Position numbers and translations under genes: made by a program. Of a DNA stretch of 64,000 bases, positions 8,235 to 56,220 are shown piece after piece. Source of the stretch: Gluconobacter kanchanaburiensis NBRC 103587 (GTDB lineage Bacteria; Pseudomonadota; Alphaproteobacteria; Acetobacterales; Acetobacteraceae); contig NZ_BJVA01000002.1 in the NCBI RefSeq assembly GCF_007988905.1, positions 1 to 64,000 on the forward strand. Reading direction: 5' to 3'. Every line of letters begins with the position of its first letter. The first letter of the stretch is position 1. Under the pieces are notes generated by a model that was not told the origin of the DNA, made no database searches, and saw nothing but the letters and a program-made list of their open reading frames with translations.

Positions 8235-8246
8235 GTATGTTCTACC

Positions 8247-31601: not shown

Positions 31602-31626
31602 GGCACGAGACTTCCTTTGTGATGAA

Positions 31627-33016: not shown

Positions 33017-33049
33017 ATCAGGATCTCTCCTGCTTTCGAAAAGGCCAAG

Positions 33050-37866: not shown

Positions 37867-38002
37867 GATACGACTCCCATTTATATTTGTTTCATCATTT
37901 ACATGAGAGGCCATTTTTTTAGATGCACCCCTATAACCCATGCCTAATATCCATTCACAAAAGCCGCCCCAACTGTAAGGTCTACAGAGCTGAATACTTG
38001 TT

Positions 38003-41920: not shown

Positions 41921-42577
41921 TCAGGCGCGCAGCAGCAGGCGCATCCTCTGGACGGCTGCATCCGGCGCGGCAAGCACCGGAATACTGACAGCAGCCTCCA
42001 CCGCTTTTAGAGCTTCAGATGTTGAGAAATGGGCAAGCATGATGACATCACAGTGCTTCAGACGCGGCGCATATTCAGCAACTAGACGATTATGTATTTC
42101 AACGTCACCACGACGCAGTGCATCAATGGCGTCAGGCACAATGATTGTTTCCAGTGTAGCCTTTGACGATGCCTGCTCCCGGAAAGTCTCAAACTCCTGC
42201 TCCATTGTCACCACGGATGGCGCAAATGTCGCCAGCATCCCGATACGCGTACCCTTTTCCAGCGCTGCGCGGAACATGGCCTCATTGGGACGGAGCACAG
42301 GAATCGTCAGCTCGTTTTCCAGCACGTCAATTGCCGGACCAAATGCAGAGCACGTGATCATCAGACCCTGCGCCTGCATGGACGCCCCATATTTCCCCAA
42401 AGCGACAAATCGCTCCGACAGATCCGGAGACAGATCAGCACTTTTTTTACGATCAATCGTCAATCCATCATCAAGCAGGTTGACGATCTCCGCCTCCGGC
42501 CAGAGACGACGAAATGCCTTCTGAATAGGCATCATTGCCACCGGAGTAGCATGAAGAAGGACAATACGCGGGCTCAT
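41921..42577 (-). CDS. Asp/Glu racemase-family protein with altered second cysteine
   Basis: A 218-residue protein of the Asp/Glu/hydantoin racemase superfamily. The first half keeps the active-site Cys in LMITCSAFGPAID (about residue 74) and the VLRPNEAM strand. In the second half, where racemases have a GC(A/T)G motif, this protein has VIMLAHFSTSEAL, so the second catalytic Cys is replaced, apparently by His. A standard two-base racemase mechanism is therefore doubtful; a decarboxylase, isomerase or lactone-related activity as in one-Cys relatives is possible. It is the first gene after a LacI-type operator and precedes the gluconate-dehydrogenase-like operon. Confidence 0.75.
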   Translation of the reverse strand: MSPRIVLLHATPVAMMPIQKAFRRLWPEAEIVNLLDDGLTIDRKKSADLSPDLSERFVALGKYGASMQAQGLMITCSAFGPAIDVLENELTIPVLRPNEAMFRAALEKGTRIGMLATFAPSVVTMEQEFETFREQASSKATLETIIVPDAIDALRRGDVEIHNRLVAEYAPRLKHCDVIMLAHFSTSEALKAVEAAVSIPVLAAPDAAVQRMRLLLRA

Positions 42578-42626: not shown

Positions 42627-42640
42627 TGTAAACGCTTTCA
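42627..42640. promoter_or_regulatory. LacI-family operator 1
   Basis: TGTAAACGCTTTCA, a LacI/PurR-type palindrome with the central CG, 50 bp upstream of the racemase-like start. It is the exact reverse complement of the site at 43808-43821, and one of six related sites around the LacI gene at 45116-46186. Confidence 0.75.
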
Positions 42641-42746
42641 TATTTTGAATACCCGGTAAAGTGCAAACTCATATTTGGCCCCTCACGAGATCGTAACTTG
42701 CTGAACGACGGGTAAGTCATGCCAGGAAAAACCAGTTTTCCTTTCA

Positions 42747-43775
42747 TCAGCCAATCTGCGGTACGCCTTGCGTCGCAAGGGTCAGGCGATAGATGGATGT
42801 ATGACATGCCATGAAAAGCTGATTTCGATGAACGCCCCCGAAACAGACATTCGGACAACGTTCGGGCAGGTCAATATGTCCGATCTGCCTGGCCTGCGAA
42901 TTGAAAATCGCAACCCCGTCCAGACCCTCACCTGATCCCCATCCACACCACAGGTTGCCGCTGATATCCGCACGCAGCCCGTCCGCCGCCCCTTCTGCAC
43001 AATCCAGGAAAACCCTTTGGCTGGAGACCGTGCCATTTGCGGAAACATCATACGCCCATATCTGTCGATGAGGGGTGTAACGGGATGCGATGACATAGAG
43101 GGTCTTTTCGTCGGGAGAGAAACATAGGCCGTTTGGCCCAGGCACATCCTCCAATACAGCCTCGGTCTTCCGCGTCCGCGGATCGATCCGATAGACGCGC
43201 GCAGCCTGAACGGGCGGCAGATCTCCTTCGGAAAAATTCGGCCCGAAAGCCGGATCCGTAAACCAGATGGCACCATCAGAAGTGCAGACGATATCATTGG
43301 GAGAGTTGAAAGGTTTGCCGTCAAACCCGTCCGCAAGAACAGTGATCCGGCCATCGGCTTCCGTACGAGTGATGCGCCGGGTGGCACATTCACACGTCAG
43401 AAGCCTGCCCTGACGGTCAACCGTATTGCCATTAGAAAAATTCGATGACGCCCGGAAAATGGATGTCTCTCCAGTCGCCTCGTCCCATTTCATGATGCGA
43501 TTGCCACGGATATCACTGAAAAGCAGAAGATTCGCCTCTCCCAGCCACACAGGGCCCTCCGTCCATTCAAATCCTGTTGCGATCCGCTCCACAACGGACA
43601 GAGCGTTGACGCAGGCTTTGAAAGCAGGATCGAGGATCCTGACGGCAGGGTCCGGCAGCCTAAGTGAGGCCTGCCACATAGCCGCATGAGCGGGATGCCA
43701 CGACGAAAGAGACGCGGCTGCACCTACCAGCGTCACGGAACCGAGAAATGATCGACGGTTCAATATGATGCTCAT
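42747..43775 (-). CDS. Tat-exported SMP-30/gluconolactonase-family lactonase
   Basis: A 342-residue six-bladed beta-propeller of the SMP-30/gluconolactonase family. It carries a twin-arginine signal (NRRSFLGSVTLVGAAASL, Arg7-Arg8, cut near AHA), so it acts folded in the periplasm. The metal and substrate sites are visible as FEWTEGPVWLGE (Glu), FNSPNDIVC (Asn-Asp), and PGPNGLCFSPDE (Asn-Gly). It would hydrolyse an aldonolactone made by a periplasmic sugar dehydrogenase. The start lies 33 bp from a LacI-type operator shared with the divergent propeller gene at 43899. Confidence 0.9.
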   Translation of the reverse strand: MSIILNRRSFLGSVTLVGAAASLSSWHPAHAAMWQASLRLPDPAVRILDPAFKACVNALSVVERIATGFEWTEGPVWLGEANLLLFSDIRGNRIMKWDEATGETSIFRASSNFSNGNTVDRQGRLLTCECATRRITRTEADGRITVLADGFDGKPFNSPNDIVCTSDGAIWFTDPAFGPNFSEGDLPPVQAARVYRIDPRTRKTEAVLEDVPGPNGLCFSPDEKTLYVIASRYTPHRQIWAYDVSANGTVSSQRVFLDCAEGAADGLRADISGNLWCGWGSGEGLDGVAIFNSQARQIGHIDLPERCPNVCFGGVHRNQLFMACHTSIYRLTLATQGVPQIG

Positions 43776-43807
43776 CTCATCCCCGCAGATTACCTTCCAA
43801 TAGCAAT

Positions 43808-43821
43808 TGAAAGCGTTTACA
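43808..43821. promoter_or_regulatory. LacI-family operator 2 (shared divergent promoter)
   Basis: TGAAAGCGTTTACA, the exact reverse complement of operator 1, 33 bp upstream of the lactonase start and 78 bp upstream of the divergent propeller/LacI unit. It allows autoregulation of the LacI gene. Confidence 0.75.
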
Positions 43822-43898
43822 TCTTTGGTCTAAATGTACCATCACCCAATTTGATATTTTTGTATCACTTTGTTGTTATTTATGGATAACAAATCACA

Positions 43899-45074
43899 AT
43901 GACTCACCGACCCTCCTCAGCCACCAAACAGTCCCGACAGCAAAAAAGACGACGTCTAAGTCCGATCACAGGAGCCATCCTGTGCGCATTTTTCGTGCAG
44001 GACGTTCATGCGGCAGAGCAATGGGCTATCTCGGCAAATGACGGCCATACAACGACCAATACTGCCGGAAAAATGATCACTGCCCGGACGATCGTTCCCG
44101 ACAGCCTCTCCCTGATCCGATTCGAGCATGGCTTGCCTGCGTTGGGAAAGACCCTTGATCTACCCACCTCGGTCGAAGGACCTCCAACAACAGTCTGGAT
44201 CGCTCCGGATTCACACTGGGCCATCGTCACAGCCGGGTCGCACGCAGGCGCACATGCGGGAGATTCTGTTATCGAAGATGATGTCGTATCGGTTGTAGCC
44301 ATCGACCACGCCACCCCGCATCTCGTCCAGACGCTCCACGCGGGCCTGGGCGCAAGTCAGGTCACCGTGTCACCGGATCAGAAATGGGCACTCGTTGGAA
44401 ACCGGAAAAGCGGAACAGTCTCTGTCTTTTCCGTCACACACAGGCAACTTCACCCTGTCCAGACCCTGAACATGGGGGCCGACAGCAACCCGGCCTCGGT
44501 TCTTTTCCTGCCGGACGGGCAACATGCCGTGGTTGTACTGCGCGGCCGTCATCAACTCGCTCTCCTCGACAGGCGCGGAGACGGTTTTGGCATACGAGAA
44601 CAGCGTCTTGATCTTGGCCATGCCCCCAATACGATGGACGTCACCGGATCGGGCCTCATCGCCATAGGAGATCAGGACCCCGCACACCCCACCGTGCACC
44701 TGGTGCGATTTAACGAGGGGACGTTAAATCTGCTCAACACAGTCCCAGTTGCCCCCGGCCCCGAACCCCTCCGTTTTTCTCCGGACGGGCGCTACCTCGC
44801 CGTAGGTGCTGTCGACAACTCCAACAAAGATCCGTCGAAACACGGAACTCTTACACTCTATCGTGTTGACGGAAGCAGCCTGGCGCCCGTGGCGAGTGAA
44901 AACGTCGGACGCTGGCCCCAAGGCATCATGTTTTCTCCAGATGGTCACACCCTTGTCGTGCAAAACACGACTGACAAGACCATGACTGTTCTGAAATGGG
45001 ACAGTATAAGGCTGCATCCGGTCGGCACCCTCCCCATGACAGCCGGGCCGGCAGCGGCCGCAACGTCATGGTAA
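43899..45074 (+). CDS. exported seven-bladed beta-propeller protein (YncE/lactonase-like)
   Basis: A 391-residue protein with a long, basic signal sequence (to about residue 38, DVHA-AEQ) followed by WD40/YVTN-like repeats: VTVSPDQKWALVGNRKSGTVSVFSV, VLFLPDGQHAVVVLRG, LRFSPDGRYLAVGAVD, IMFSPDGHTLVVQNTT. This fold occurs in lactonases and in periplasmic quinoprotein-like proteins; no catalytic residues are certain. It is divergent from the SMP-30 lactonase and just upstream of the LacI gene on the same strand, so it shares the LacI-type operator. Role unknown. Confidence 0.8.
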   Translation: MTHRPSSATKQSRQQKRRRLSPITGAILCAFFVQDVHAAEQWAISANDGHTTTNTAGKMITARTIVPDSLSLIRFEHGLPALGKTLDLPTSVEGPPTTVWIAPDSHWAIVTAGSHAGAHAGDSVIEDDVVSVVAIDHATPHLVQTLHAGLGASQVTVSPDQKWALVGNRKSGTVSVFSVTHRQLHPVQTLNMGADSNPASVLFLPDGQHAVVVLRGRHQLALLDRRGDGFGIREQRLDLGHAPNTMDVTGSGLIAIGDQDPAHPTVHLVRFNEGTLNLLNTVPVAPGPEPLRFSPDGRYLAVGAVDNSNKDPSKHGTLTLYRVDGSSLAPVASENVGRWPQGIMFSPDGHTLVVQNTTDKTMTVLKWDSIRLHPVGTLPMTAGPAAAATSW

Positions 45075-45115
45075 AGCCCCCCAGACCGCTAACGGAAACG
45101 CAAGCATTGAGCACA

Positions 45116-46186
45116 ATGAACCCTGACCACCCATCGCCCAGAAAAAACAGGAGTTCAAACAGCGACGGTCGCACGCGCCTTCCGGTCGCGCAGGATGTCG
45201 CGGAACTCGCGGGCGTTTCCATCGCCACAGTGTCCCGTACCCTGAACGAACCCGAGAAAGTGAGACCGGCAACACGCGAAGCCGTCATGAAAGCGGCTGC
45301 GGAACTTGGCTTTGTGCTAAACAGTGCCGCACGCGCGCTGAGTACGCGTCGCTCCTCAACAGTTGGCGTGATCGTGCCCAGCTATGGAAACGAGGTGTTC
45401 GTGCGTGCGCTTTCCAGTTTTCAAAGAACGATGCGGGCTGCGGGATATCAGGTGCTGGCGGCCAGTTCCGAATACGATCTCGCTACCGAAATGCAGGAAG
45501 CTGCGTTTCTCTTGCAGCGCGGCGTTGATGGGCTGATGCTGGTTGGTGGCATCCACGATCCAGACCTGTATGCGCGCGCGGAACGCAGTCAGGTTCCCAT
45601 CATCCAAAGTTTCAGCCTTTCAGACCGTGAATACTGTGTTGGCTTCGATAACCGGGAAGCCACATTCCGGGCCGCAAACTACCTGCTGGATCTCGGCCAC
45701 AAACGACTTGCCGTCGTCACCGGCACACGTGAAAACAATGACCGAGCAGCCCCACGAGCCGAAGGCGTGCATCTTGCCATGGCAGAGCGCGGACTGGAAC
45801 TCAGTCCGGCGCATGACCTGATTGTCTCGTCAGGAATTGTAGCTGGTCGGGATGCCTTCGGCCAGCTGATGGGCGGTCCGAAAGAGCAACGACCGACAGG
45901 CATTATTTGTGGAACGGATGAAATCGCACTGGGCATCATGAGCGAGGCATCAGAGAGAGGCGTCGATATTCCCCGCACTCTTTCCGTAATCGGTTTCAAC
46001 GATTCAAGCTTCTCCGCCGTTCTCTCGCCACCCCTTACAACCATTCGTGTCGATGCCGATGAAATCGGGAAGTCATCGGCTCTCGCTCTACTGAACCTCA
46101 TGGGCGCCAAAACGATGGTCCAAGTCACCCGGATTACCCCGGAGCTTGTCCTTCGGGGAACTGTAGCCCCGCCGGACAAGCTCTAG
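45116..46186 (+). CDS. LacI-family transcriptional regulator
   Basis: A 356-residue LacI-type repressor: helix-turn-helix VAQDVAELAGVSIATVSRTLNEPEKVRPATREAVMKAAAELGF-like N-terminus (about residues 23-65) and a periplasmic-binding-type ligand domain (TVGVIVPSYGNEVFVRAL, GIICGTDEIALGIMSEASERG, LSVIGFNDSSFSAVLSPPLTTIRVD). The GntR (gluconate) branch is similar. An earlier in-frame ATG at 45068 overlaps the propeller stop; 45116 is preferred because it gives the usual family length. It converges with the hydroxyacid dehydrogenase gene with a 4-bp overlap of the ends. Six LacI-type palindromes in the surrounding promoters make it the probable controller of the 42-56 kb block. Confidence 0.9.
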   Translation: MNPDHPSPRKNRSSNSDGRTRLPVAQDVAELAGVSIATVSRTLNEPEKVRPATREAVMKAAAELGFVLNSAARALSTRRSSTVGVIVPSYGNEVFVRALSSFQRTMRAAGYQVLAASSEYDLATEMQEAAFLLQRGVDGLMLVGGIHDPDLYARAERSQVPIIQSFSLSDREYCVGFDNREATFRAANYLLDLGHKRLAVVTGTRENNDRAAPRAEGVHLAMAERGLELSPAHDLIVSSGIVAGRDAFGQLMGGPKEQRPTGIICGTDEIALGIMSEASERGVDIPRTLSVIGFNDSSFSAVLSPPLTTIRVDADEIGKSSALALLNLMGAKTMVQVTRITPELVLRGTVAPPDKL

Positions 46187-47427
46187 GGACAGACCTTTCT
46201 GACGAAGCTTTCGTTCAGCTCTTCGACGGAATTCACACCCAGCATCGCCATGTCGCGCATGATTTCGTCGCGCATGATGCTATAAGCATGCTCCACCCCT
46301 CTCTGACCGTCATAAGCTGCGGCGAATAGAAAAGGCCGTCCCATCAGCGTGAAATCCGCTCCCAGAGCCAGAGCCTTGAGGACATCGGACCCCCGGCGAA
46401 TACCGCCATCAATGATGACCTTCATATCTCCCTTTTGGGACGCGATCTCTGGCAGAACACGCAGAGGCGCCATCGCATAATCAAGTTGACGGCCACCGTG
46501 GTTGGAAAGAATGATGCCGTCCGCGCCATGATCCCGCGCCATGAAGGCGTCATGCGGGGAAATGATGCCCTTGATGACCAGAGGTCCGGTCCAGCGCTTG
46601 CGAATAAACGCAATATGCTCCCAGGTCAGCTTGTCTCGCGCGACGGTATTGCGAACTTTGCGGGACATCATCGGCGGACCGCGATCGGCTTCCGTATTTT
46701 CAAAATGCGGCGCACCGTGCTTCACGAAGGTTCTGGCCACAGTTCCCAAAAGCCAGCGTGGATGGGTTACACTCTGCATCATCACACGGGGAGTAACCCG
46801 GATCGGCATAGCAAATCCTGACCGGATATTATGTTCGCGATTGCCAAGTATCGGCGTATCGACGGTCACGACGAGATTTCTATAACCCGCGGCTTCGACC
46901 CGGTCGAGCATGCGCGTGATCCGATCAAAATCCCCGGCAAGATACCCCTGAAACCAGGCATCAGGATTGACGGAAATGACGTCTTCCAACCGGATCAGTG
47001 AAGAGGCGCTGAGAATCATGGGGATGTTGCATGAGCGGGCCGCACCCGCCAGCGCGAGATCCGCACGATAGGCGACGAACGCTGCCCCCCCTAAAGGCCC
47101 GATCGAAAATGGCGCGGAATACGTTTTCCCGAACAGGCTGGTCCGCGTGGAGCGTGCCGAAGTATCAACCAGCGCACGAGGTGTGAAACCATAATCCTGA
47201 TAGGCTTGGCGGCCGTTGCGCATGGCGCTTTCCGTTTCCACACCGCCTGCGACGTATTGATAGATCATGCGCGGAAGTAAAGGCTTGGAGTGTCGCTCAA
47301 AATCATCGAGCGCGAGAACATCCCGCAAACGTGCCGGAAGAATCCTAGGCGCTGCCTTAAGCGCTGTGGAAAGAACAGGAGGAGCAGTCTGCGGAAGACC
47401 GTCCGCCGCTTTTATGATGTCACCCAT
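46183..47427 (-). CDS. FMN-dependent alpha-hydroxyacid dehydrogenase (LldD type)
   Basis: A 414-residue FMN flavoprotein of the L-lactate dehydrogenase/glycolate oxidase family. YQYVAGGVETESAMR (N-terminal FMN contact), VTVDTPILGNREHNIRSGF, the catalytic His and Arg in ILSNHGGRQLD, and IDGGIRRGSDVLKALALGADFTLMGRPF are all present. It has no signal peptide and is expected on the cytosolic face of the membrane, feeding electrons to quinone. The ATG at 47427 has AGGAG upstream. A LacI-type operator lies 33 bp before the start. Substrate may be lactate or the 2-hydroxyacid of the surrounding pathway. Confidence 0.9.
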   Translation of the reverse strand: MGDIIKAADGLPQTAPPVLSTALKAAPRILPARLRDVLALDDFERHSKPLLPRMIYQYVAGGVETESAMRNGRQAYQDYGFTPRALVDTSARSTRTSLFGKTYSAPFSIGPLGGAAFVAYRADLALAGAARSCNIPMILSASSLIRLEDVISVNPDAWFQGYLAGDFDRITRMLDRVEAAGYRNLVVTVDTPILGNREHNIRSGFAMPIRVTPRVMMQSVTHPRWLLGTVARTFVKHGAPHFENTEADRGPPMMSRKVRNTVARDKLTWEHIAFIRKRWTGPLVIKGIISPHDAFMARDHGADGIILSNHGGRQLDYAMAPLRVLPEIASQKGDMKVIIDGGIRRGSDVLKALALGADFTLMGRPFLFAAAYDGQRGVEHAYSIMRDEIMRDMAMLGVNSVEELNESFVRKVCP

Positions 47428-47459
47428 TTTCAGACATACTCCTGCGCTCAAATCCAATA

Positions 47460-47473
47460 TGTAAGCCTTTACA
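47460..47473. promoter_or_regulatory. LacI-family operator 3
   Basis: TGTAAGCCTTTACA, near-perfect palindrome, 33 bp upstream of the hydroxyacid dehydrogenase start. Differs from the other sites by CC in place of CG at the centre. Confidence 0.7.
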
Positions 47474-47681
47474 TTCTCTTTATGTCCCTTTCTGCGCCTG
47501 TTGCAAGGGATACATGGTATATCCTCGCAGTTTCAGCTGTTTATCCATAACGTCAAATTTTCGAAGAAATAAATATATGTTATTGTTTTTGTTTTGTTTT
47601 TTTAATTTGTTCCGCCAGAATTCTGTGACCTGCCACTTGGCAATCACGCAAAAATGAGCCTCATTTCACGGAGGGTTATTA

Positions 47682-47689
47682 CCCCCCCC
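47682..47689. repeat. 8-C homopolymer in a promoter region
   Basis: Eight consecutive C between an AT-rich tract and the LacI-type operator of the lactonase gene, 67 bp before its start. Length changes here would shift promoter spacing. Confidence 0.5.
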
Positions 47690-47698
47690 TCAAGAATA

Positions 47699-47712
47699 TG
47701 TAATCGTTTCCA
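47699..47712. promoter_or_regulatory. LacI-family operator 4
   Basis: TGTAATCGTTTCCA, matches TGWAANCGNTTNCA, 44 bp upstream of the lactonase start at 47756. Less symmetrical than sites 1 and 2. Confidence 0.6.
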
Positions 47713-47755
47713 AATTGCTATTCGAGATTCCAACTCACGTAAGACAGGAGAACTT

Positions 47756-48835
47756 ATGACTTGCGGATTTTTCGCCTATGTCGGCTGCTACACGACTGCG
47801 GAGCGACAGGCACATGGCCGGGGGATCAACGTTTACCATGTGAACGACGCATTCACGGAGTGGAAGCATCTTCAGAATATGCCGACACCCGACAACCCCT
47901 CGTTCCTTTCGCTGGATCGCAGCGGAAACCATCTCTGCGCCGTCCATGGAGACCGCAACCATATCTCGTCTTACGCTATCGATCGCCAGAACGGCGTTCT
48001 CCAACACAGATCTGGTGTTGAATGCGGCGGACGCAATCCCGTTCATCTCGTTTTTGATACGACCAACCGCTTCATCGCGATCCCGAATTATGCTGACGGT
48101 ACGCTCACGTCAGTTTCTTTCGATGCAGCAAACGGCATACTCGGTGCAGTCACGTCATCCACAACACTCCCGGGAGAGCGTGGTCCTCACCGTGTCGAAC
48201 AGCAGTCCTCTCACCCTCATGGCGTGACATTCGACCCCGCAGAACGCTTTCTGTATGTCCCGGACAAAGGCTTGGACCGTATTTTTGTATTCCGGTTCCA
48301 GGAGGGCAATCTTCGAATCGTCGACAGCATATCAACACGTGAGGGCGCAGGCCCAAGACATATTGTCTTTCATCCAACCAAACCTTACGCCTATGTCATC
48401 AACGAACTGGACTGTACGGTAACGTATTATCGTCATGATTCCGAAACCGGTAAGTTGACCCCTCAACAGATTGTTCAGGCTCTTCCCGAAAATTATACAG
48501 GAAACGGAAGAGGAGCAGAAATCGCCCTTTCCCCGGACGCAAAGTCGGTCCTTGTCTCCCTTCGTGGCGCTGATCTGATGAGCGTCCTCTCCATAGACGA
48601 TAATACCGGAATGGTTCTGCTCACCCAATCGACCGGGAGTGGAGGCAAAACGCCAAGATTTTTTACAATCACTGTACCTACATCAACAGTTCTGATCGCC
48701 CACGAAGCGTCGGACACGATAGGCCGCGTCGCCTTTACGGCTCACAAACTGGACATTACGGGTGTTCAGCACTGTGTGGAGGTTGCCAGTCCGAGCAGTA
48801 TTGTTCTCACGCCGGCACCAGATCAACCGGCCTGA
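47756..48835 (+). CDS. lactonase, 6-phosphogluconolactonase (YbhE/Pgl) family
   Basis: A 359-residue seven-bladed propeller lactonase of the YbhE type, without signal peptide and so cytosolic. Typical blades: FAYVGCYTTAER at the start, GGRNPVHLVFD, SSHPHGVTFDPAERFLYVPDKGLDRIFVF, GAGPRHIVFHPTKPYAYVINELD. The ATG at 47756 is fixed by AGGAGAACTT. It may hydrolyse 6-phosphogluconolactone or another lactone made by the neighbouring dehydrogenases. It is convergent with the OprB gene and preceded by a LacI-type operator and an 8-C run. Confidence 0.88.
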   Translation: MTCGFFAYVGCYTTAERQAHGRGINVYHVNDAFTEWKHLQNMPTPDNPSFLSLDRSGNHLCAVHGDRNHISSYAIDRQNGVLQHRSGVECGGRNPVHLVFDTTNRFIAIPNYADGTLTSVSFDAANGILGAVTSSTTLPGERGPHRVEQQSSHPHGVTFDPAERFLYVPDKGLDRIFVFRFQEGNLRIVDSISTREGAGPRHIVFHPTKPYAYVINELDCTVTYYRHDSETGKLTPQQIVQALPENYTGNGRGAEIALSPDAKSVLVSLRGADLMSVLSIDDNTGMVLLTQSTGSGGKTPRFFTITVPTSTVLIAHEASDTIGRVAFTAHKLDITGVQHCVEVASPSSIVLTPAPDQPA

Positions 48836-48880
48836 AACACCAGAAAACTTTCGACTGGCAAAGACAGGCATATCTTTTTA

Positions 48881-50341
48881 CTAGAAAATCTGAACCGTCG
48901 ATTTAAAGCCTAGAACATGCGCCGTCCGCAGATTTCTTTGACCGTTCGGGTTAAAGAAAATCTGATAATCCGGCGCAAACGCAAACCCCCGGGTTACCTG
49001 GATCTGATAATTGACTTCAAAAACAGCGGCATTTTTCTGGACACCCGTCGCATGATTGGGCATCAGACTTACCGCTCCCTCTTCAAGATAATTCGCCTCC
49101 GTAGCACTAACGCCACCAGCAATTTTTTCATACATCCCTATGAAATTTAGTGCATCCTGAGGACGTGAACGAATAAACCCACGATTGATAAAGCCGAAAT
49201 AAGTCTCCCAGCGTCTGAGGGCAATGCGTGGATCATTGAGAATGAATCCCCCAATTAGTGTGGTGCCTGACGAAGCAGGCGCTCCCTGTGGCTGCCAGAT
49301 TTTCTGATCCGTTTCGAACCATGCACTCCAGCTCCTATTATGCTGCATCGCCTTTTTGCGCGTCACGCTAAGCGGCAAACCGTTAACATCATAATAGTTA
49401 TCCGAAACCGGAACCGTCAGTAGGCGTGCGCCAATTTTATAATGGCCCGCGAGTTTGTGTTTCGCCCCAAACTGCGGCTCCCACCCTACCTCGACGGGTA
49501 TCGACTGGCCAAGAACGGCCGACCCGCCACTGAATTTGAAGCCACTCCGGTTGTAGAGGTTGGAGAACATACTTTTCTCAGGAAAATAGACAGCGGCCTG
49601 AATATAAGTATAGCGAGAGGGGCGTCCACGAATGCGGGTTCCCCAGACACCAGCTGGATAACGACCAATATAATCATTATCACTCACAGCCCTGGGACGG
49701 CCACACAGACTGTTGTTGATAAAATTACAGAACAAGGGCGAGTTGGAGAAATCCGCTAGTTCAGTCATACGGCCGCCTGCAATCGCCAGTCGACCGCCGA
49801 AAAGGTTTTCCTCACCATAAGCCATAACCAGATGGACGACGACATTCCCCCCTCCGCCATAGATTTCCGACGCATGACCCAACCAGTCACCAAACATGCG
49901 GTTGGCCGTCGTACCATAACGGCTTGTAAAAACGGTATGTGTTGCAAAACCGCGCAAACCAATCAACTTATCCCAGTTCATATGTAGAATCGTACTGATC
50001 TGCCCCGCGTTACTTGCTCCCTGACGATAATTTCTGAAACCCGGCGTAGGTTTGCTAACAGCCCCTGTAAATTCATTTGTATTAGACATCAGGAGCGCGA
50101 TTCCGTGCGCCCTCAACCAAGCTTTCACACCGAAAACATCAGGTAATAATGCGGGGGGATTTTCAAATGGCGGCACCACCGGTCCATTCAGAGGCGTGGC
50201 GGGAAGCGGCTTTGCGACCCGAACGCTGGCATCATAAGTTGGCTCAGCCTCCTGAATCGTTTGAGCATATGCGGAACCACAGAACAGGGCTGCACTGCCG
50301 ATCAGCAATGCAGCCGAATACCTCACAGAACCAGAAATCAT
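48881..50341 (-). CDS. OprB-family carbohydrate-selective porin
   Basis: A 486-residue outer-membrane porin of the OprB family. The signal peptide is MISGSVRYSAALLIGSAALF to AYAQ. GIALLMSNTNEFTGAVS-type first strand, DKLIGLRGFATHTVF, and the aromatic C-terminus (VQIF) are family features. It would let sugars or sugar acids into the periplasm for the dehydrogenases. It follows the ModA-like gene by 19 bp and should share its LacI-type and Crp-type promoter elements. Confidence 0.9.
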   Translation of the reverse strand: MISGSVRYSAALLIGSAALFCGSAYAQTIQEAEPTYDASVRVAKPLPATPLNGPVVPPFENPPALLPDVFGVKAWLRAHGIALLMSNTNEFTGAVSKPTPGFRNYRQGASNAGQISTILHMNWDKLIGLRGFATHTVFTSRYGTTANRMFGDWLGHASEIYGGGGNVVVHLVMAYGEENLFGGRLAIAGGRMTELADFSNSPLFCNFINNSLCGRPRAVSDNDYIGRYPAGVWGTRIRGRPSRYTYIQAAVYFPEKSMFSNLYNRSGFKFSGGSAVLGQSIPVEVGWEPQFGAKHKLAGHYKIGARLLTVPVSDNYYDVNGLPLSVTRKKAMQHNRSWSAWFETDQKIWQPQGAPASSGTTLIGGFILNDPRIALRRWETYFGFINRGFIRSRPQDALNFIGMYEKIAGGVSATEANYLEEGAVSLMPNHATGVQKNAAVFEVNYQIQVTRGFAFAPDYQIFFNPNGQRNLRTAHVLGFKSTVQIF

Positions 50342-50360
50342 GATCGTTACTTCTCGCGAT

Positions 50361-51056
50361 TTACCTGGGCTCAAGACCGGATTTTCTGAAACGTTCCACT
50401 GATTTCGGCTCACGCAGGAAGGCAAGAAATGCCTCAACCCTCTCTTTCTGGAAGCTGTCAGCCAGAGACGCCCCCGAGAAAGCCGTGACTTTCTGAATTT
50501 CTTCAGGAAGGCCTCCTACGATTTCTGTTCCTTCGATTGCCAGAAGCTCGCTGATCTGCTGGACAGCGAGATCAGCCTCTCCCGTTCTCAGCTTTTCTGC
50601 GGAAAATCCGGAAGGAATGCGGGTCGCCCGAGCATTAACCGCTTCAGCAATGCCAAGCCGCTCGAGGAGAGGTGCAAAATACAGACCGCTTTGACCACCA
50701 AGCGAATAAGCAACCGAGCGGGCCTTCAGCAACGTCGCCTTGAAAGCATCGACTGTCGCTATATCAGGATGCTTCGCCCCACTGGCGACACCGATGCCAA
50801 TTTTCGAAACCACTAGTGGCACCAAGGCATCTGGCGCGACAATTTTCTTCTCAACAAGTCCCTCCAGCGCGTCATCAGTTACAATGATCCCGTCAGGTCT
50901 TTTCCCTTTTTCAAGCGATGCAAGAATGACCGTCGTAGGGGCCCATTCAATAACAGGCTCCAAGCCCGTTTTCCGGACGAAATCCTGTAGAATTCCGTCA
51001 TCGAATGCACCCTTTACAACCAGAGCCACGCTCAGTGAAAACTGCCCTTGCGACAT
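50361..51056 (-). CDS. ModA-like substrate-binding domain protein without signal peptide
   Basis: A 231-residue protein with the type 2 periplasmic-binding fold of ModA/AlgQ-like proteins (LSVALVVKGAFDDGILQDFVRKTGL, SVAYSLGGQSGLYFAPLLERLGI, LRTGEADLAVQQISELLAIEG). It starts directly with the first strand and has no signal sequence, so it appears cytosolic, and no ABC permease or ATPase genes are near. The start is supported by GGAGATAGG upstream. Placed in one unit with the OprB porin under LacI-type control. It may be an intracellular ligand sensor or an enzyme-like protein; function unknown. Confidence 0.75.
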   Translation of the reverse strand: MSQGQFSLSVALVVKGAFDDGILQDFVRKTGLEPVIEWAPTTVILASLEKGKRPDGIIVTDDALEGLVEKKIVAPDALVPLVVSKIGIGVASGAKHPDIATVDAFKATLLKARSVAYSLGGQSGLYFAPLLERLGIAEAVNARATRIPSGFSAEKLRTGEADLAVQQISELLAIEGTEIVGGLPEEIQKVTAFSGASLADSFQKERVEAFLAFLREPKSVERFRKSGLEPR

Positions 51057-51135
51057 ATCCGCCTATCTCCTTCGCGCAGATAAAACAAAGAAAGCCACGC
51101 CAATCTCTCGAAAACCAGAATCTGCGCGGCGTCAA

Positions 51136-51149
51136 TGAAAACGCTTACA
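51136..51149. promoter_or_regulatory. LacI-family operator 5
   Basis: TGAAAACGCTTACA, matches the six-site consensus, 80 bp upstream of the ModA-like/OprB unit. Confidence 0.7.
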
Positions 51150-51181
51150 CTAGACATTTTCTTTCGCGTTAAACACGTATA

Positions 51182-51197
51182 TGTGATATATATCACA
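51182..51197. promoter_or_regulatory. perfect Crp/Fnr-type palindrome
   Basis: TGTGATATATATCACA, a perfect 16-bp palindrome matching TGTGA-N6-TCACA, the Crp consensus. It lies between the divergent ModA-like/OprB and MFS/dehydrogenase units, 126 and 223 bp from their starts, in an AT-rich 363-bp promoter region. Confidence 0.65.
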
Positions 51198-51331
51198 ATT
51201 ATATGGTATATGCATCTATATATCTGATTATAGGAGATATTTTTATTTTTTTATCTTTCTAAAAAGCCTAAAAATCACTGCCTCATATTCTTGTCTCAGC
51301 TTTTTGGATTGTTTGAGCGGCACGCATATGA

Positions 51332-51346
51332 TGTAAGCGCCTTTCA
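51332..51346. promoter_or_regulatory. LacI-family operator 6 (15-bp variant)
   Basis: TGTAAGCGCCTTTCA, like the other sites but with one extra central base, 74 bp upstream of the MFS start. The spacing change may weaken binding. Confidence 0.5.
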
Positions 51347-51419
51347 TTAGAGCGCCATATGGTCTGGTTCTGGATATAAAAACGGCTGGGTAAATCAATG
51401 CCCGCCACTGAGGTGTATC

Positions 51420-52724
51420 GTGACAAAAGGACGCTACAGACTGGTCATTGCCGTGCTGCTGTTTGCGCTTGGAATGATCAATTATACTGATCGCGCTGCT
51501 GTCGGCATTCTAGCGCCTCAGATACAGCGCGATCTTCACATCACGCCCTCGCAGCTGGGTTGGGTATTTAGCGCCTTCTTTTTTAGCTACGCAATCTTTT
51601 CCTTTCTGGGCGGCTACCTGTCCGACAAATTCGGGCCAAAGCGCACCTTTGGCGTTGCAGTCGTGAGCTGGTCGGTTTTCTGCTCGTTGACCGGAGCGGT
51701 CGCAGCGCTATTCCCACTCATTATCGTGCGTCTGTTTTTTGGTGCTTCTGAAGGGCCGATGAACTCCACCACCAACCGAATGGTCACAAACTGGTTTCCC
51801 AGAAAAGAAACAGCCCGTGCCCTGGGCTTCACACTTTCGGGACAGAACCTCGGGAGTGCGGTGGCCGCACCACTGGTGATTTCTCTGGGGTATTTCTTTG
51901 GATGGCGACTGGCATTCGTTATGCTTGGCGCCATCGGTATTCTCTGGTGCGTCCTGTGGCTAACCTTTGCATCCGATCGCCCCGCGGAAAGCCGCCACGT
52001 CACGCCCGAAGAGCTGGCGCATATCACGTCCGACCGCTCGGAAGCCATCCTGCCAAAAGGAAGCGCGCCTCTGAGACATTACATTCTTCGGCAATCCACC
52101 TGGGGTCTGGCTCTCGGGCTATTTGCCCTCCTTTACCCCCTCTATATTTTTGTTTCCTGGATGCCCAGCTATTTCACGAACGTCATGCATGTCACGCCAG
52201 CGGGACTTTCCGTTGCGGCAGGCGTTCCATGGATTGGCGGTTTTCTTGGATATTTCCTCGGTGGCTTTATTTCAGACCTGTTTTTTAAACGCAGTGAAAA
52301 CGGACTGAAGGCCCGTAAAACGACCACGATCGTACCCCTTCTTTTGGCCACGATCACCCTTTCCGTCATCCCGAGCGTTCACTCCGTAACCGCGGCTGTG
52401 GCACTTTTCACGTTATCCCTCTTCGCGCTGTCGATGGGGACCCAATCGCTCTGGGCCATGATCCATGAAGTCACACCCGTCATCTATATGGGTACCGTCG
52501 GCGGCTTCATCCATTTCCTTGCCAACATGTCAGGAGTCATTGCCCCTGCCCTGACAGGCTACGTTATCGAACACGCCACCAGCGGATATGCGTCCGCCTT
52601 CTGGATCGCAGCAGCCGTAGGCCTTTTGGGGGGCCTGAGCATCCTAATGCTGGTGCATAACAAGCGAATTCCTTCGCACGGCCATAATCCGTCGGTAGCA
52701 TCTCTGACAACGGGACGTTCCTGA
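51420..52724 (+). CDS. MFS transporter, anion:cation symporter family (sugar-acid carrier)
   Basis: A 434-residue inner-membrane carrier with about 12 membrane segments. MINYTDRAAVGILAPQIQRDLHIT is the start typical of the ACS family (GudP, ExuT, 2-ketogluconate carriers), followed by GGYLSDKFGPKR and SEGPMNSTTNRMVTNWFPRKE. The start is GTG at 51420 with GAGGTG upstream. Stop overlaps the cytochrome start (TGATG), so it is the first gene of an operon with a sugar dehydrogenase complex. It probably takes up the acid or keto acid product. LacI-type and Crp-type sites precede it. Confidence 0.9.
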   Translation: MTKGRYRLVIAVLLFALGMINYTDRAAVGILAPQIQRDLHITPSQLGWVFSAFFFSYAIFSFLGGYLSDKFGPKRTFGVAVVSWSVFCSLTGAVAALFPLIIVRLFFGASEGPMNSTTNRMVTNWFPRKETARALGFTLSGQNLGSAVAAPLVISLGYFFGWRLAFVMLGAIGILWCVLWLTFASDRPAESRHVTPEELAHITSDRSEAILPKGSAPLRHYILRQSTWGLALGLFALLYPLYIFVSWMPSYFTNVMHVTPAGLSVAAGVPWIGGFLGYFLGGFISDLFFKRSENGLKARKTTTIVPLLLATITLSVIPSVHSVTAAVALFTLSLFALSMGTQSLWAMIHEVTPVIYMGTVGGFIHFLANMSGVIAPALTGYVIEHATSGYASAFWIAAAVGLLGGLSILMLVHNKRIPSHGHNPSVASLTTGRS

Positions 52725-54019
52725 TGCGCAAAATCTCCACCTCTTGCAGCACCAGAGTGGCTATATGCCTTGTAGCGTGCTCGGCACTGGCGTCCCTGCT
52801 GCCCAAGGCACAGGCCGCGGACGTGACGCTCGCTGAAAAAGGTCGATATATTGCGACCGCAGCCGATTGCCTGGCCTGCCATACCGCACCTGGTGGCAAA
52901 CCCTTTGCGGGTGGCTACCCGATCATAACACCTGTCGGAACAATCTATTCGACCAATATCACACCAGCCCCGAAGAGCGGCATTGGTGACTACACAAAAA
53001 CAGAGTTCTTTGATGCTGTTCGCCGCGGAATAGGACACAACGGCAAACGGCTCTACCCGGCCATGCCATATACGTCCTACGCTGCCATCACCAATGACGA
53101 TATGGAGGCGCTCTACGCCTTCTTCAGGTCCGAGGTTGCACCTGTCGAACAGGAAAACAGGCCCGATAATATCCGTTTCCCATTCAGCATCCGCTCGGGC
53201 ATGGCGCTGTGGAACTGGCTTTATCTTGATACACGCACGTTCCAGCCACGACCTGGAGAAACATCACAGGTCGCGCGTGGCCGTTATCTGGTGGATCATC
53301 TGGAGCATTGCGGTACATGCCACACACCGCGCACTCTCTTCATGGGCCCGGCGAATGGACGCGCTCTATCGGGCTCGGTCGTCGGTGCGTGGTACGCCCC
53401 CAATATCACGACTGACAAGATCGCCGGCATCGCTGACTGGACAGACAGCGATCTCAGGAATTACCTGACATCGGGTCACGCGATGAATAAAGGCCAGGCG
53501 GCAGGCCCAATGGCAGAAGTCGTCACAAACAGTACTCGCTTTCTTACGCCAGACGACGTCGATGCCATGATCGCATATCTGCGGGAAGTCTCCCCGATTG
53601 CCAGTAAGGAAAAACGTTCCCGGACATCCTACGGCTCCACAGAACCGACTGAAGATATCGCACGTGGGCAGACAAACCCTGACGACAGGGGCTGGAAAAT
53701 TTTTAGTGGTTCCTGCGCATCATGCCATCAGGCACAAGGACAAGGAATCAACGTCTACCCCTCCCTGACGCACAACTCTGCCACTGGCAGCACCAACGCC
53801 CGCAACCTTGTGGCGACCATCCTGACTGGGGTCGAGAGGCAAACCGGTGAGAATGCGGTCTTCATGCCGGCGTTCGGGCCCGGGGCACTTTGGGTCAATC
53901 GTCTCTCGGATCAGGATATCGCTGATGTCAGTAATTTCATTCTGAAGGCGTTCGGCAATCCATCTGTGCAGATCGACGCACGCTATGTCGAGAAACGCCG
54001 TGCCGAGCTGACGCCATGA
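52724..54019 (+). CDS. tri-haem cytochrome c subunit of an FAD sugar dehydrogenase
   Basis: A 431-residue cytochrome c with a signal peptide (about 10-31, AQA-ADV) and three haem motifs: CLACH (49-53), CGTCH and CASCH. Homologous to the cytochrome at 38003-39328 in motif order and in GGYPIITPVGTIYSTNITP. It should take electrons from the GMC subunit and pass them to ubiquinone. Here it precedes the small and large subunit genes, unlike the S-L-C order of the first complex. Confidence 0.92.
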   Translation: MRKISTSCSTRVAICLVACSALASLLPKAQAADVTLAEKGRYIATAADCLACHTAPGGKPFAGGYPIITPVGTIYSTNITPAPKSGIGDYTKTEFFDAVRRGIGHNGKRLYPAMPYTSYAAITNDDMEALYAFFRSEVAPVEQENRPDNIRFPFSIRSGMALWNWLYLDTRTFQPRPGETSQVARGRYLVDHLEHCGTCHTPRTLFMGPANGRALSGSVVGAWYAPNITTDKIAGIADWTDSDLRNYLTSGHAMNKGQAAGPMAEVVTNSTRFLTPDDVDAMIAYLREVSPIASKEKRSRTSYGSTEPTEDIARGQTNPDDRGWKIFSGSCASCHQAQGQGINVYPSLTHNSATGSTNARNLVATILTGVERQTGENAVFMPAFGPGALWVNRLSDQDIADVSNFILKAFGNPSVQIDARYVEKRRAELTP

Positions 54020-54053
54020 CCAGATCCTATGTCCGTTTGTGGAGCGCTAAACC

Positions 54054-54599
54054 ATGAAACAACAGTCTCTCTTCGCAACGGCTGTATGTCAGGTGTCCAG
54101 ACGCAGGCTTCTGCTTGGCGGTCTGGCATTCGGAAGTATGGGCCTTCTTGCGCCCCGCGGGCTGACCAACACGCCCAAAGCTTCTGATGTAACAGATTTT
54201 CTTATACTCTCCGAATTTCTGACGGGCAGGAAGACCTTGAGCGTCACCTTGGCACGACGGTATTATCTTGGCCTGCAGGATCAGTTCCCGGACCTGGCAG
54301 TCAGGATCGCAAACCTGTCCCGGGAGATTCACGCCTCGGGGGTTCAGACCATGGATGACTACCTCAGTCATGGCCCCTCCCCCGAAGCACGAAACACCGC
54401 AACAACCATCGTCTCCGCCTGGTATCTCGGTGTAATCGGTCAGAATCCGAAAAAACAAATGATCGCCTATTCCGACGCCCTGATGTTTCAGGCTGTCGCA
54501 GGAGCCCTGGTCGTTCCCTCATACGGTGCCGGCCCCCTCGCATGGGGCAACCGTCCTGAACCTTATATGATGCTCAAGGGAGTGTCCGATGAGCAGTGA
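54054..54599 (+). CDS. sugar dehydrogenase small subunit (sorbitol/fructose dehydrogenase type)
   Basis: A 181-residue protein with a twin-arginine signal (SRRRLLLGGLAFGSMGLL, Arg16-Arg18) and a mature region typical of the small subunits of FAD sorbitol and fructose dehydrogenases (DFLILSEFLTGRKTLSVTLARRYYLGL, WYLGVIGQ, YSDALMFQAVAGALVVPSYGAGPLAWG). It escorts the FAD subunit through the Tat system. It overlaps the large subunit start by 11 bp. Confidence 0.9.
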   Translation: MKQQSLFATAVCQVSRRRLLLGGLAFGSMGLLAPRGLTNTPKASDVTDFLILSEFLTGRKTLSVTLARRYYLGLQDQFPDLAVRIANLSREIHASGVQTMDDYLSHGPSPEARNTATTIVSAWYLGVIGQNPKKQMIAYSDALMFQAVAGALVVPSYGAGPLAWGNRPEPYMMLKGVSDEQ

Positions 54600-56220
54600 A
54601 ACCCTACATGCGGACGTTGTCATTGTCGGCTCAGGCGTCTGTGGCGCCCTGATCGGCGCTCAACTGGCAAAAGCGGGAAAATCCGTTCTCATTCTGGAGG
54701 CCGGACCGCGGGTCAAACGTCGCGACATCGTTGAAACCTACCGGGATGCTCCCGTCAAACTGTCTTTGGCAAACATGAAGCTTCAGGGAGCAGGATCGCC
54801 GTTTCCAAGCCTTCCTCACGCTCCATCCACTTATGGCGACTATCTGGAGCAGAACGGGCCGGTCAAATACAACACGAGTTATCTTCGGGTTGTCGGTGGC
54901 ACGACGTGGCATTTCGGCTCCGCACTCTGGAGATTGCTGCCCAGCGAATTCAAACTCAATTCGCTATATGGTCGCGGGCGGGACTGGCCGATCGGCTATG
55001 ACGACCTCGAAAAATATTATGACCTAGCTGAACTGGAACTTGGTGTCAGCGGAACGGATGATCAGGACGAAAGCGGGGCTGGCGGAAACCCCTCTCCGCC
55101 ACGCACAGCACCCTATCCCATGAAGCAGGTCCCTCTGACCTACATGTTCAAAACACTGGCCGAAAAACTGTCAGCCGGAGGATATCACCCGGTCTGGGAG
55201 CCCCATGGCCGGGCAACGCGTCCCTATAATCAAAGACCAGTCTGTGCTGGAAACAACAACTGCAACCCGATCTGCCCCATCGGCGCGAAATATGATGGTT
55301 CGATGCATTGCGACATCGCCGAAAGCCGTGGGGCGACCATCATACCCAACGCTGTTGTCTACAGACTTGAAGACGATGATACGGGACGAATTCAGGCGCT
55401 GTGGTTCAAACGTCCCGACGGTTCAGAACACAAGGTTACTGCAAAGGTTTTCGTCGTTGCCGCTCATACGATTGAAACACCCAAGCTCCTTCTGATGTCC
55501 AAAACACGACATTCCCCGAACGGAATTGCAAACAGTTCGGACATGGTCGGTCGCAACCTCATGGATACCACCGGCATCAGCGTCACCATGAAAACCCGCG
55601 ACCCGATGTGGCCCGGACAAGGGCCGACAGAACTGCTGGTCTTCAATAAGCGTGAAGGCGATTTTCGCCGCAACGCTGCCCAGTACAAGATCAAGGTCCG
55701 CAATACGACCCCGGTATCCCAATACGCTGCTACTCTTCTGGAGCAGGGCGTTCTGGGCACAGAACTTGATCGAAAAATTCAGGAGCTTTCCGCCCATACA
55801 CTCGCCTGGGCCGTAGACTTTGAAGTTCTGCCTGATCCCGCAAATCGTGTGACTCTCAGCACGAAGAAATTCGATGCTTTGGGACTGCCCGTCCCGTCAC
55901 TCTACTATAATCTCGACGACTACTGGCATGCGGGCACCGAGCTTGCCATGCAGGATCTCAACAACTTCACGCAACTTCTTGACGCGGACATTATCAAGAA
56001 GAACATGAAATTCGAAAATCGCCAGCACCCGTCCGGTACGACAATCATGGGAGATAATCCCAAGGATTCTGTCGTGAACCGTGACTGTCGTGCTCACGAT
56101 CATCCCAATCTCTACATCGCAGGAACCAGTGTCATGTCTGCAAGTACATGTATGAACCCCACCCTGACGGCTGCAGCACTGTCCCTGCGAATAGCTGAAA
56201 GGATACAGGGCGAAGTATAA
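54589..56220 (+). CDS. GMC-family FAD sugar dehydrogenase large subunit
   Basis: A 543-residue flavoprotein: VVIVGSGVCGALIGAQLAKAGKSVLILEAG (FAD), VVGGTTWHFGSALWR (second FAD contact), and a Cys cluster VCAGNNNCNPICPIGAKY (about 218-235) expected to hold a 3Fe-4S centre. The C-terminal domain has NRQHPSGTTIMGDNPKDSV with a catalytic His and STCMNPTLTAAALSLRIAE. It is closest in style to FAD sorbitol, fructose and glucose dehydrogenases and would oxidise a sugar or polyol in the periplasm. Substrate cannot be decided by inspection. It ends the operon before a strong terminator. Confidence 0.9.
   Translation: MSSETLHADVVIVGSGVCGALIGAQLAKAGKSVLILEAGPRVKRRDIVETYRDAPVKLSLANMKLQGAGSPFPSLPHAPSTYGDYLEQNGPVKYNTSYLRVVGGTTWHFGSALWRLLPSEFKLNSLYGRGRDWPIGYDDLEKYYDLAELELGVSGTDDQDESGAGGNPSPPRTAPYPMKQVPLTYMFKTLAEKLSAGGYHPVWEPHGRATRPYNQRPVCAGNNNCNPICPIGAKYDGSMHCDIAESRGATIIPNAVVYRLEDDDTGRIQALWFKRPDGSEHKVTAKVFVVAAHTIETPKLLLMSKTRHSPNGIANSSDMVGRNLMDTTGISVTMKTRDPMWPGQGPTELLVFNKREGDFRRNAAQYKIKVRNTTPVSQYAATLLEQGVLGTELDRKIQELSAHTLAWAVDFEVLPDPANRVTLSTKKFDALGLPVPSLYYNLDDYWHAGTELAMQDLNNFTQLLDADIIKKNMKFENRQHPSGTTIMGDNPKDSVVNRDCRAHDHPNLYIAGTSVMSASTCMNPTLTAAALSLRIAERIQGEV

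Follow-up and report, generated by a model that had tools for sequence, protein, structure and literature searches.

Acetic acid bacteria carry several membrane dehydrogenases whose substrates are unsettled and whose regulators are little known. In the fruit-dwelling Gluconobacter kanchanaburiensis NBRC 103587 (genome total 2,923,885 bases, or 2.92 Mb), the first 64,000 nucleotides of contig NZ_BJVA01000002.1, a stretch of 64 kb that is called the window here, hold a gene for a LacI-family regulator amid genes for two flavin adenine dinucleotide (FAD)-cytochrome c complexes, three propeller proteins, a porin, and a carrier. An earlier note on this DNA had read these genes as a single LacI regulon, and its account of the genes themselves is supported by Pfam. 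The racemase-like gene (41921-42577), the ModA-like gene (50361-51056), and an adjacent tetronate operon did not appear in it. The genes and the predicted operators, the first five of which carry no strand, are as follows.

37147 to 37866, minus strand, probably an exported protein, without a Pfam match; a homologue follows the flavin mononucleotide (FMN) dehydrogenase in a more distant Gluconobacter (G402)
38003 to 39328, minus strand, cytochrome c subunit of the first complex (Pfam)
39325 to 41106, minus strand, GMC1, FAD subunit of the first complex, a gluconate 2-dehydrogenase (GADH) paralogue (Pfam, identity, tree)
41103 to 41831, minus strand, small subunit of the first complex, Gluconate_2-dh3 (Pfam)
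41921 to 42577, minus strand, Asp/Glu racemase-like protein (PF01177), 62-69% identical in four other loci, cross-genus core
42627 to 42640, predicted operator, strict, before the racemase-like gene and the GADH-like unit, kept in three other Gluconobacter
42747 to 43775, minus strand, SMP-30/gluconolactonase (SGL) with a twin-arginine-like signal seen by eye (PF08450; exported gluconolactonase 3dr2, 4e-46)
43808 to 43821, predicted operator, strict, between the SGL lactonase and the YncE-like/LacI unit
43899 to 45074, plus strand, YncE-like beta-propeller, probably exported (PF10282, 2e-13)
44996 to 46186, plus strand, LacI-family regulator (LacI PF00356, 5e-17; Peripla_BP_3 PF13377, 2e-30), with 90-95% identical orthologues in three other Gluconobacter (L009-L011)
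46183 to 47457, minus strand, FMN-dependent 2-hydroxyacid dehydrogenase, mandelate/lactate type (PF01070)
47460 to 47473, predicted operator variant with a CC core, before the FMN dehydrogenase
47699 to 47712, predicted operator, strict, before the 7-bladed lactonase
47756 to 48835, plus strand, 7-bladed lactonase, no signal seen (PF10282, 3e-80, matched on the longer open reading frame 47654 to 48835)
48881 to 50437, minus strand, OprB porin (PF04966)
50361 to 51056, minus strand, ModA-like binding protein (PF13531), cross-genus core
51136 to 51149, predicted operator, strict, before the ModA-like gene and OprB
51332 to 51346, plus strand, predicted 15-bp operator variant, before the carrier and the second complex
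51420 to 52724, plus strand, major facilitator superfamily (MFS) carrier, nearest to TIGR00893 (galactonate type) at 288.4, below the cut-off of 395
52724 to 54019, plus strand, cytochrome c of the second complex (Pfam)
54054 to 54599, plus strand, small subunit of the second complex, FAD-SLDH (Pfam)
54589 to 56220, plus strand, GMC2, FAD subunit of the second complex, in its own clade beside fructose dehydrogenase (FDH), 2-ketogluconate dehydrogenase (KGDH), and others

Both the helix-turn-helix and the periplasmic-binding-like domain of the LacI family were found in the regulator. Its true start is probably downstream of 44996, and self-regulation is probable because its gene comes after that of the YncE-like protein.

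The earlier note had placed six sites matching one motif 33-80 bp before six transcription units. All six places exist, but only four of them (42627, 43808, 47699, and 51136) match the strict motif TGWAANCGNTTNCA, which has no other distinct exact place in the window; site 47460 (TGTAAGCCTTTACA) departs from it at one position and has CC as its core, and site 51332 (TGTAAGCGCCTTTCA) is a 15-bp variant of the operator. Sites 42627 and 43808 are exact reverse complements of each other, as had been stated. The distance from site to start codon, read from the sequence with ATG 47427 taken as the start of the FMN dehydrogenase, is 32-79 bases, and since site 43808 sits between two divergent units, the six sites serve seven units rather than six. 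The four strict sites span 8.5 kb, and shuffled windows gave a mean of 0.06 strict matches and a maximum of 1. Whole-genome counts were made as pattern searches, each with the reversed pattern as control. The strict motif occurs at five distinct places, four in this cluster and one elsewhere, and its reversed control at none in all 2,923,885 bases. The fifth match (C2:195635) was set aside as chance because a resolvase gene adjoins it, and a further one-mismatch match lies at 45985, within the LacI gene. When two mismatches were allowed, the 37 matches in the window against a shuffle mean of 27.6 were not significant (7 of 100 shuffles reach 37), and the corresponding genome pattern TGTAANCGNTTWCA was rejected as uninformative, with 221 matches on both strands versus 187 for the reversed pattern. 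The pattern TGWAANSSNTTWCA, which was built after the sites had been seen, has four places in the genome, all within this cluster; its location is telling and its count is not, because the reversed control also gives matches (2 forward and 2 reverse).

Conservation was followed in 397 genomes sampled from the family and among 26 Gluconobacter genomes (5 with the regulon and 21 without). The window LacI is, over the best segment, 94% identical to that of G. cerevisiae (L009), 90% to that of G. sphaericus (L010), and 95% to that of G. japonicus NBRC 3271 (L011), and in these loci the strict motif stands in the same intergenic places as in the window, the contig of G. cerevisiae stopping short of the last two sites (51136 and 51332). 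In alignments with the window, the site blocks are kept while the flanks drift. Among the four species, site 47460 reads TGTAAGCCTTTACA twice, TGTAAACCCTTACA, and TGTAAGCCCTTACA, with the CC core constant and other bases variable; cores other than CG were also found in two loci of other genera (L046 and L048). The 15-mer at 51332 is identical in G. japonicus and has a changed end in G. sphaericus, on account of which it is regarded as the weakest of the six. In the more distant G402, the regulon genes are rearranged and lie on two contigs, and every one of the five sites that show 0-1 mismatch, in the 30,093 bp covered, precedes a regulon unit, namely the ModA-like gene, the racemase operon, the lactonase/YncE-like pair, the MFS gene, and the LacI/FMN dehydrogenase pair. 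It should be noted that the LacI gene in the draft of G. japonicus (L011, 10001-11192) carries one extra base relative to the window, which changes the frame; either the assembly is wrong here or the regulator has been lost naturally.

Outside Gluconobacter, a LacI about 52-56% identical was found, among the matches listed, in six genomes of four genera; a Planococcus locus (L012, 28% identity) was excluded from the comparison. A ModA-like protein lies beside this LacI in 6/6 loci, and a racemase-like protein in 5/6, the exception being a truncated locus (L048, from G163) whose contig end falls within LacI and which has no racemase-like gene, so that it contributes only one intergenic region. 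A 2-hydroxyacid dehydrogenase is likewise found beside LacI, of the FMN type in L043, L044, L046, and L048, and replaced in L045 and L047 by a D-isomer-specific 2-hydroxyacid dehydrogenase together with a TctC binding protein. Ten of the 11 intergenic regions that flank LacI in these four genera contain a site with 0-1 mismatch to TGWAANCGNTTWCA, which answers favorably the question, raised in the earlier note, of motif conservation in other Acetobacteraceae. No such site arose in 300 Markov shuffles of each of these regions, none was found in the other 100,233 bp of the six loci, and none in 298,861 bp from 18 loci that have the racemase and lack a LacI match at 1e-20. Before the racemase of L046 there is no site with 0-1 mismatch; a perfect palindrome with two mismatches, TGTAAGGCCTTACA, is present there. 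The sites thus track the regulator, being present beside LacI across genera and absent from related loci without it. The core shared across genera, as defined by gene content, is LacI, the 2-hydroxyacid dehydrogenase, the ModA-like protein, and the racemase-like protein, with the oxidases outside it; only in Gluconobacter was this LacI found with the oxidase complexes, propellers, porin, and carrier. That one predicted LacI regulon covers both FAD complexes, the three propellers, the porin, and the carrier, as the earlier note had claimed, is well supported by the conservation of the sites across species and genera.

The racemase-like protein has an invariant Cys in TCSAFGP, and the place expected for a second Cys reads AHFSTS in all five aligned sequences. 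Racemases usually carry a second catalytic cysteine there, and perhaps this protein is not an amino-acid racemase. In the five aligned sequences of the ModA-like protein, no signal peptide is visible by eye.

The first complex (38003-41831) has all three GADH-type subunits (Gluconate_2-dh3, GMC FAD, and cytochrome c), and GMC1 is 60-62% identical to the common gluconate 2-dehydrogenase copy that is present in 26/26 Gluconobacter genomes. In a tree of 18 proteins, GMC1 and its relative in G402 form a separate branch beside that copy. GADH oxidizes C2 of an aldonate. Because GMC1 is a paralogue of gluconate 2-dehydrogenase, the complex more likely oxidizes C2 of an acid after opening of a lactone than a sugar to its lactone, which is the step that the earlier note had assigned to it; as far as the letters allow a judgment, that note was correct on the regulon and probably wrong on the order of the oxidation steps. 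D-gluconate and L-threonate have the same configuration at C2 and C3, and a GADH relative acting on L-threonate would therefore be chemically reasonable. FMN dehydrogenases of the mandelate/lactate family act on (S)-2-hydroxy acids. In the same tree, GMC2 and three orthologues form a clade of their own (support 100/100) outside the KGDH clade, so labelled by gene neighborhood, and the FDH clade, whose reference (L082) matches the solved fructose dehydrogenase at 1251 bits; the nearest relatives of GMC2 are a complex at C16 of its own genome and one at C80 of G397. A third KGDH-like and GADH-like pair with an OprB porin was seen elsewhere in the window's genome (L077, G000:C16:8000-26000).

The exported protein at 37147-37866 has no Pfam match, and its structure model (predicted local distance difference test score 45.5) is too poor to use. 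Together with the adjoining cytochrome gene it gives the stretch 37147-39328 a mosaic look: the two are nearest G. sphaericus (91 and 96% DNA identity), the remaining genes are nearer G. japonicus and G. cerevisiae (86-95% versus 77-85% to G. sphaericus), and GMC1 stands at 94-95% to the latter pair versus 91% to G. sphaericus. In G. cerevisiae and G. japonicus, the exported protein is a variant only 41-42% identical to that of the window, and a 41% relative lies beside the otn operon of a Gluconobacter without the regulon (L112, from G403, 8122-8901).

A tetronate operon and a regulator gene lie next to this locus, as follows.

30804 to 31679, minus strand, 2-oxo-tetronate isomerase OtnI (NF043033, 376.9, cut-off 325)
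31724 to 33016, minus strand, GntP-family permease (TIGR00791, 337.7, cut-off 292.75)
33050 to 33691, minus strand, 3-oxo-tetronate decarboxylase OtnC (NF043034, 252.5, barely above the cut-off of 250)
33688 to 34977, minus strand, 3-oxo-tetronate kinase OtnK (NF043035, 610.7, cut-off 350)
34974 to 35900, minus strand, L-threonate dehydrogenase LtnD (NF043037, 454.9 bits, cut-off 350)
36040 to 36999, plus strand, LysR regulator, transcribed away from the otn operon (TF_pcaQ is the best model but scores under its cut-off)

With LtnD, OtnI, OtnK, and OtnC all (4/4) over their NCBIfam cut-offs, the operon (30804-35900) holds a complete L-threonate set. The pathway runs from the dehydrogenase LtnD through OtnI, OtnK, and OtnC to dihydroxyacetone phosphate (PMC12540250). 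The same otn neighbor was found in G302, G401, and G408, which makes four species with the window, and OtnK is present in 5/5 Gluconobacter with the regulon versus 2/21 without it (hypergeometric 3e-4, among related genomes). A closer connection was seen in two lineages. In G402, the genes for the racemase, OtnK, OtnC, and the three GADH-like subunits follow one another almost without gaps downstream of a site; in another genus (L044), the order is LacI-racemase-OtnK-OtnC with a LacI site in the operon, and the isomerase scores 324.1 against the cut-off of 325. Further, the best 25 places of the racemase-like gene were surveyed, which include the window's own genome and G302 and leave 23 outside Gluconobacter, some with less than 9 kb on one side owing to contig ends. 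At 5/23 (L044, L119, L123, L128, and L131), OtnK is no more than about 9 kb from the racemase, where a rough hand estimate of chance gives about 0.1; near the racemase, L116 and L122 have an LtnD-like gene (34%), and L116 and L131 a relative of the 7-bladed lactonase. Family-wide presence of OtnK was dropped as evidence, and adjacency alone was used, because at least 242/397 genomes have OtnK above its cut-off. The earlier note had called the substrate unknown. The links to OtnK and OtnC suggest that the substrate class is probably four-carbon acid sugars such as threonate, and thus not wholly unknown.

PtxS, a LacI protein of Pseudomonas, is reported to bind TGAAACCGGTTTCA, to respond to 2-ketogluconate, and to control gad, kgu, and its own gene (PMC11678583; PMC3402500). 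The locus is here interpreted, at what we would call even chances, as a LacI repressor regulon of PtxS-like design through which four-carbon acid sugars, or lactones of these, would be oxidized in the periplasm, taken up, and assimilated. Ligand-free LacI would occupy the 14-bp palindromes at the promoters of the seven units, including its own, and would be freed by a sugar acid, a lactone, or a keto-acid intermediate. OprB would let the substrate into the periplasm, where the FAD-cytochrome c complexes would oxidize it and pass electrons to the respiratory chain; the exported gluconolactonase would open a lactone, and the GADH-like complex would then yield the 2-oxo acid. The MFS or GntP carrier would import the acid or keto acid, the cytosolic 7-bladed lactonase, the FMN dehydrogenase, and the racemase-like and ModA-like proteins would convert the remaining acids to 2-oxo-tetronate, and the neighboring LysR-linked OtnI, OtnK, and OtnC would turn this into dihydroxyacetone phosphate. 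A specific respiratory entry into tetronate metabolism is put forward more tentatively: the first complex would be an FAD-cytochrome c tetronate 2-dehydrogenase, with the second FAD complex and a lactonase upstream, all under one LacI, and with a cytosolic core in which ModA-like and racemase-like enzymes may act on tetronates or 2-oxo acids.

Several observations weigh against the four-carbon regulon. The close Gluconobacter loci do not count as independent cases, and site 51332 is of odd length and incompletely kept in G. sphaericus. The window's otn operon has no strict LacI site and is adjoined by a LysR gene, and two Gluconobacter (G403 and G339) carry the otn operon without the regulon. 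Within the stretches examined, OtnK is lacking at 18/23 racemase places and at 5/6 LacI loci outside Gluconobacter (L043 and L045-L048), and its frequency in the family makes its presence alone weak. Finally, the enzymes of which both complexes are paralogues act on six-carbon acids.

A competing explanation that we consider doubtful is that the locus duplicates the ordinary gluconate route (from lactone through gluconate and 2-ketogluconate to 2,5-diketogluconate), with LacI acting, PtxS-like, on 2-ketogluconate. The identity of 60-62% between GMC1 and the common GADH would fit it, as would the binding of TGAAACCGGTTTCA and the control of gad and kgu by PtxS, and the common GADH/KGDH cluster (L079), which also holds OprB, a YncE-like protein, and a LacI gene; the account of G. 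sphaericus SJF2-1 counts both complexes, if they are those of this locus, as GADH and KGDH homologues (PMC9692623). However, the genome has, at other places, GADH and KGDH copies that are labelled canonical by the neighborhood described for SJF2-1, and GMC2 does not group with that KGDH clade. Matches by Pfam to kguE-, kguK-, and kguD-like genes are absent among the units, and in two lineages OtnK and OtnC share an operon with a LacI site. G. japonicus NBRC 3271, which has this locus, reportedly needed foreign kgd genes for 2,5-diketogluconate in work by Kataoka in 2015.

It appears unlikely that the LacI regulon serves a different sugar acid (a pentonate, say, or an acid derived from ascorbate) that only feeds into the tetronate pathway. 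The wide set of tools (three propellers and two complexes), the exported gluconolactonase, and the carrier nearest the galactonate type speak for it, and L-threonate arises from ascorbate in the plant apoplast (PMC11066805); against it, Pfam showed among the units no dehydratase, aldolase, or amidohydrolase that would serve longer acids. A pathway for ascorbate that uses a gluconolactonase and a WD40-like enzyme, reportedly described by Stack in 2020, was considered and dropped, there being no amidohydrolase or PdxA match by Pfam among the units. It is very improbable that the motif, though real, belongs to another LacI protein or controls only a few units locally, since, despite two further LacI genes in the genome and the mutual resemblance reported for LacI-family operators such as the PtxS site, the sites follow this LacI across genera, are absent from the 18 related loci without it, and do not occur, even when two mismatches are allowed, in the 3.1 kb surrounding each of the two further LacI genes (L007 and L008).

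Under the four-carbon regulon, the locus supplies a testable regulator, operators, and a substrate class for two membrane dehydrogenases. It may represent a respiratory route by which L-threonate and similar acids, released by plants from vitamin C, are used. The ModA-like, racemase-like, and 2-hydroxyacid dehydrogenase set offers candidates for enzyme discovery, and the sites mark candidate inducible promoters for Gluconobacter.

In the literature searched, none of the papers found with both Gluconobacter and L-threonate dealt, by title or opening, with this subject, and no title on LacI and Gluconobacter, among the matches listed, concerned this regulon; the main text of a 2014 survey of LacI regulons mentions neither Acetobacter, Gluconobacter, Rhodospirillales, nor lactonases. 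Two LacI genes near the 2-ketogluconate reductase of Gluconobacter CHM43 have been reported, with PtxS cited beside them (PMC11837542). The complete adjacent operon is like the described pathway for L-threonate and D-erythronate, whereas the periplasmic respiratory entry proposed here differs from entry by LtnD. The list for SJF2-1 includes a homologue of GADH (59.8%) and one of KGDH whose cytochrome gene comes first (PMC9692623). Compared by description, the stretch IGS75_00740-00810 of that strain fits the locus in gene order and in the 15 locus tags that span both complexes, with subunits of 242, 592, and 435 amino acids versus 242, 593, and 441 here. The two complexes are thus very probably those that had been listed for SJF2-1 as homologues of GADH and KGDH. 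That account gives only the two complexes, as paralogues; regulator, operators, and substrate are absent from its section 3.4 (PMC9692623).

The common GADH/KGDH cluster of Gluconobacter (L079), taken as the equivalent of IGS75_07900-07940 of SJF2-1, resembles the locus in having both complex types, OprB, a YncE-like protein, and a LacI gene. It differs in that its LacI is 28-29% identical to that of the window, in that no site with 0-1 mismatch was found in L076, L078, or L079, and in that no tetronate gene was seen in those stretches, though none was searched for there. In L076 and L079 the gluconate dehydrogenase cluster has its own LacI gene and OprB, and in L079 the YncE-like protein is by the KGDH-like complex; perhaps this cluster is a second regulon of the same style.

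The earlier note knew of no described module of this kind, which goes too far as regards the design, given that both complexes are very probably those listed in SJF2-1 and that PtxS of Pseudomonas is a LacI regulator with a 14-bp site of like form. The PtxS-controlled gluconate dehydrogenase is a periplasmic membrane enzyme. Unlike the PtxS regulon, the locus lacks, by Pfam, a kguEKTD-like set among its units, and it adds a second FAD complex, three propellers, the FMN dehydrogenase, and the racemase-like and ModA-like proteins. The likeness, which is one of site form and gene content, consists in a LacI regulator, in a 14-bp palindrome of the same TGWAANCGNTTNCA frame as TGAAACCGGTTTCA, a type of frame common to many LacI proteins, and in the predicted coverage of a gluconate dehydrogenase, a carrier, cytosolic genes, and the regulator itself, predicted sites preceding both the GADH-like unit and the YncE-like/LacI unit.

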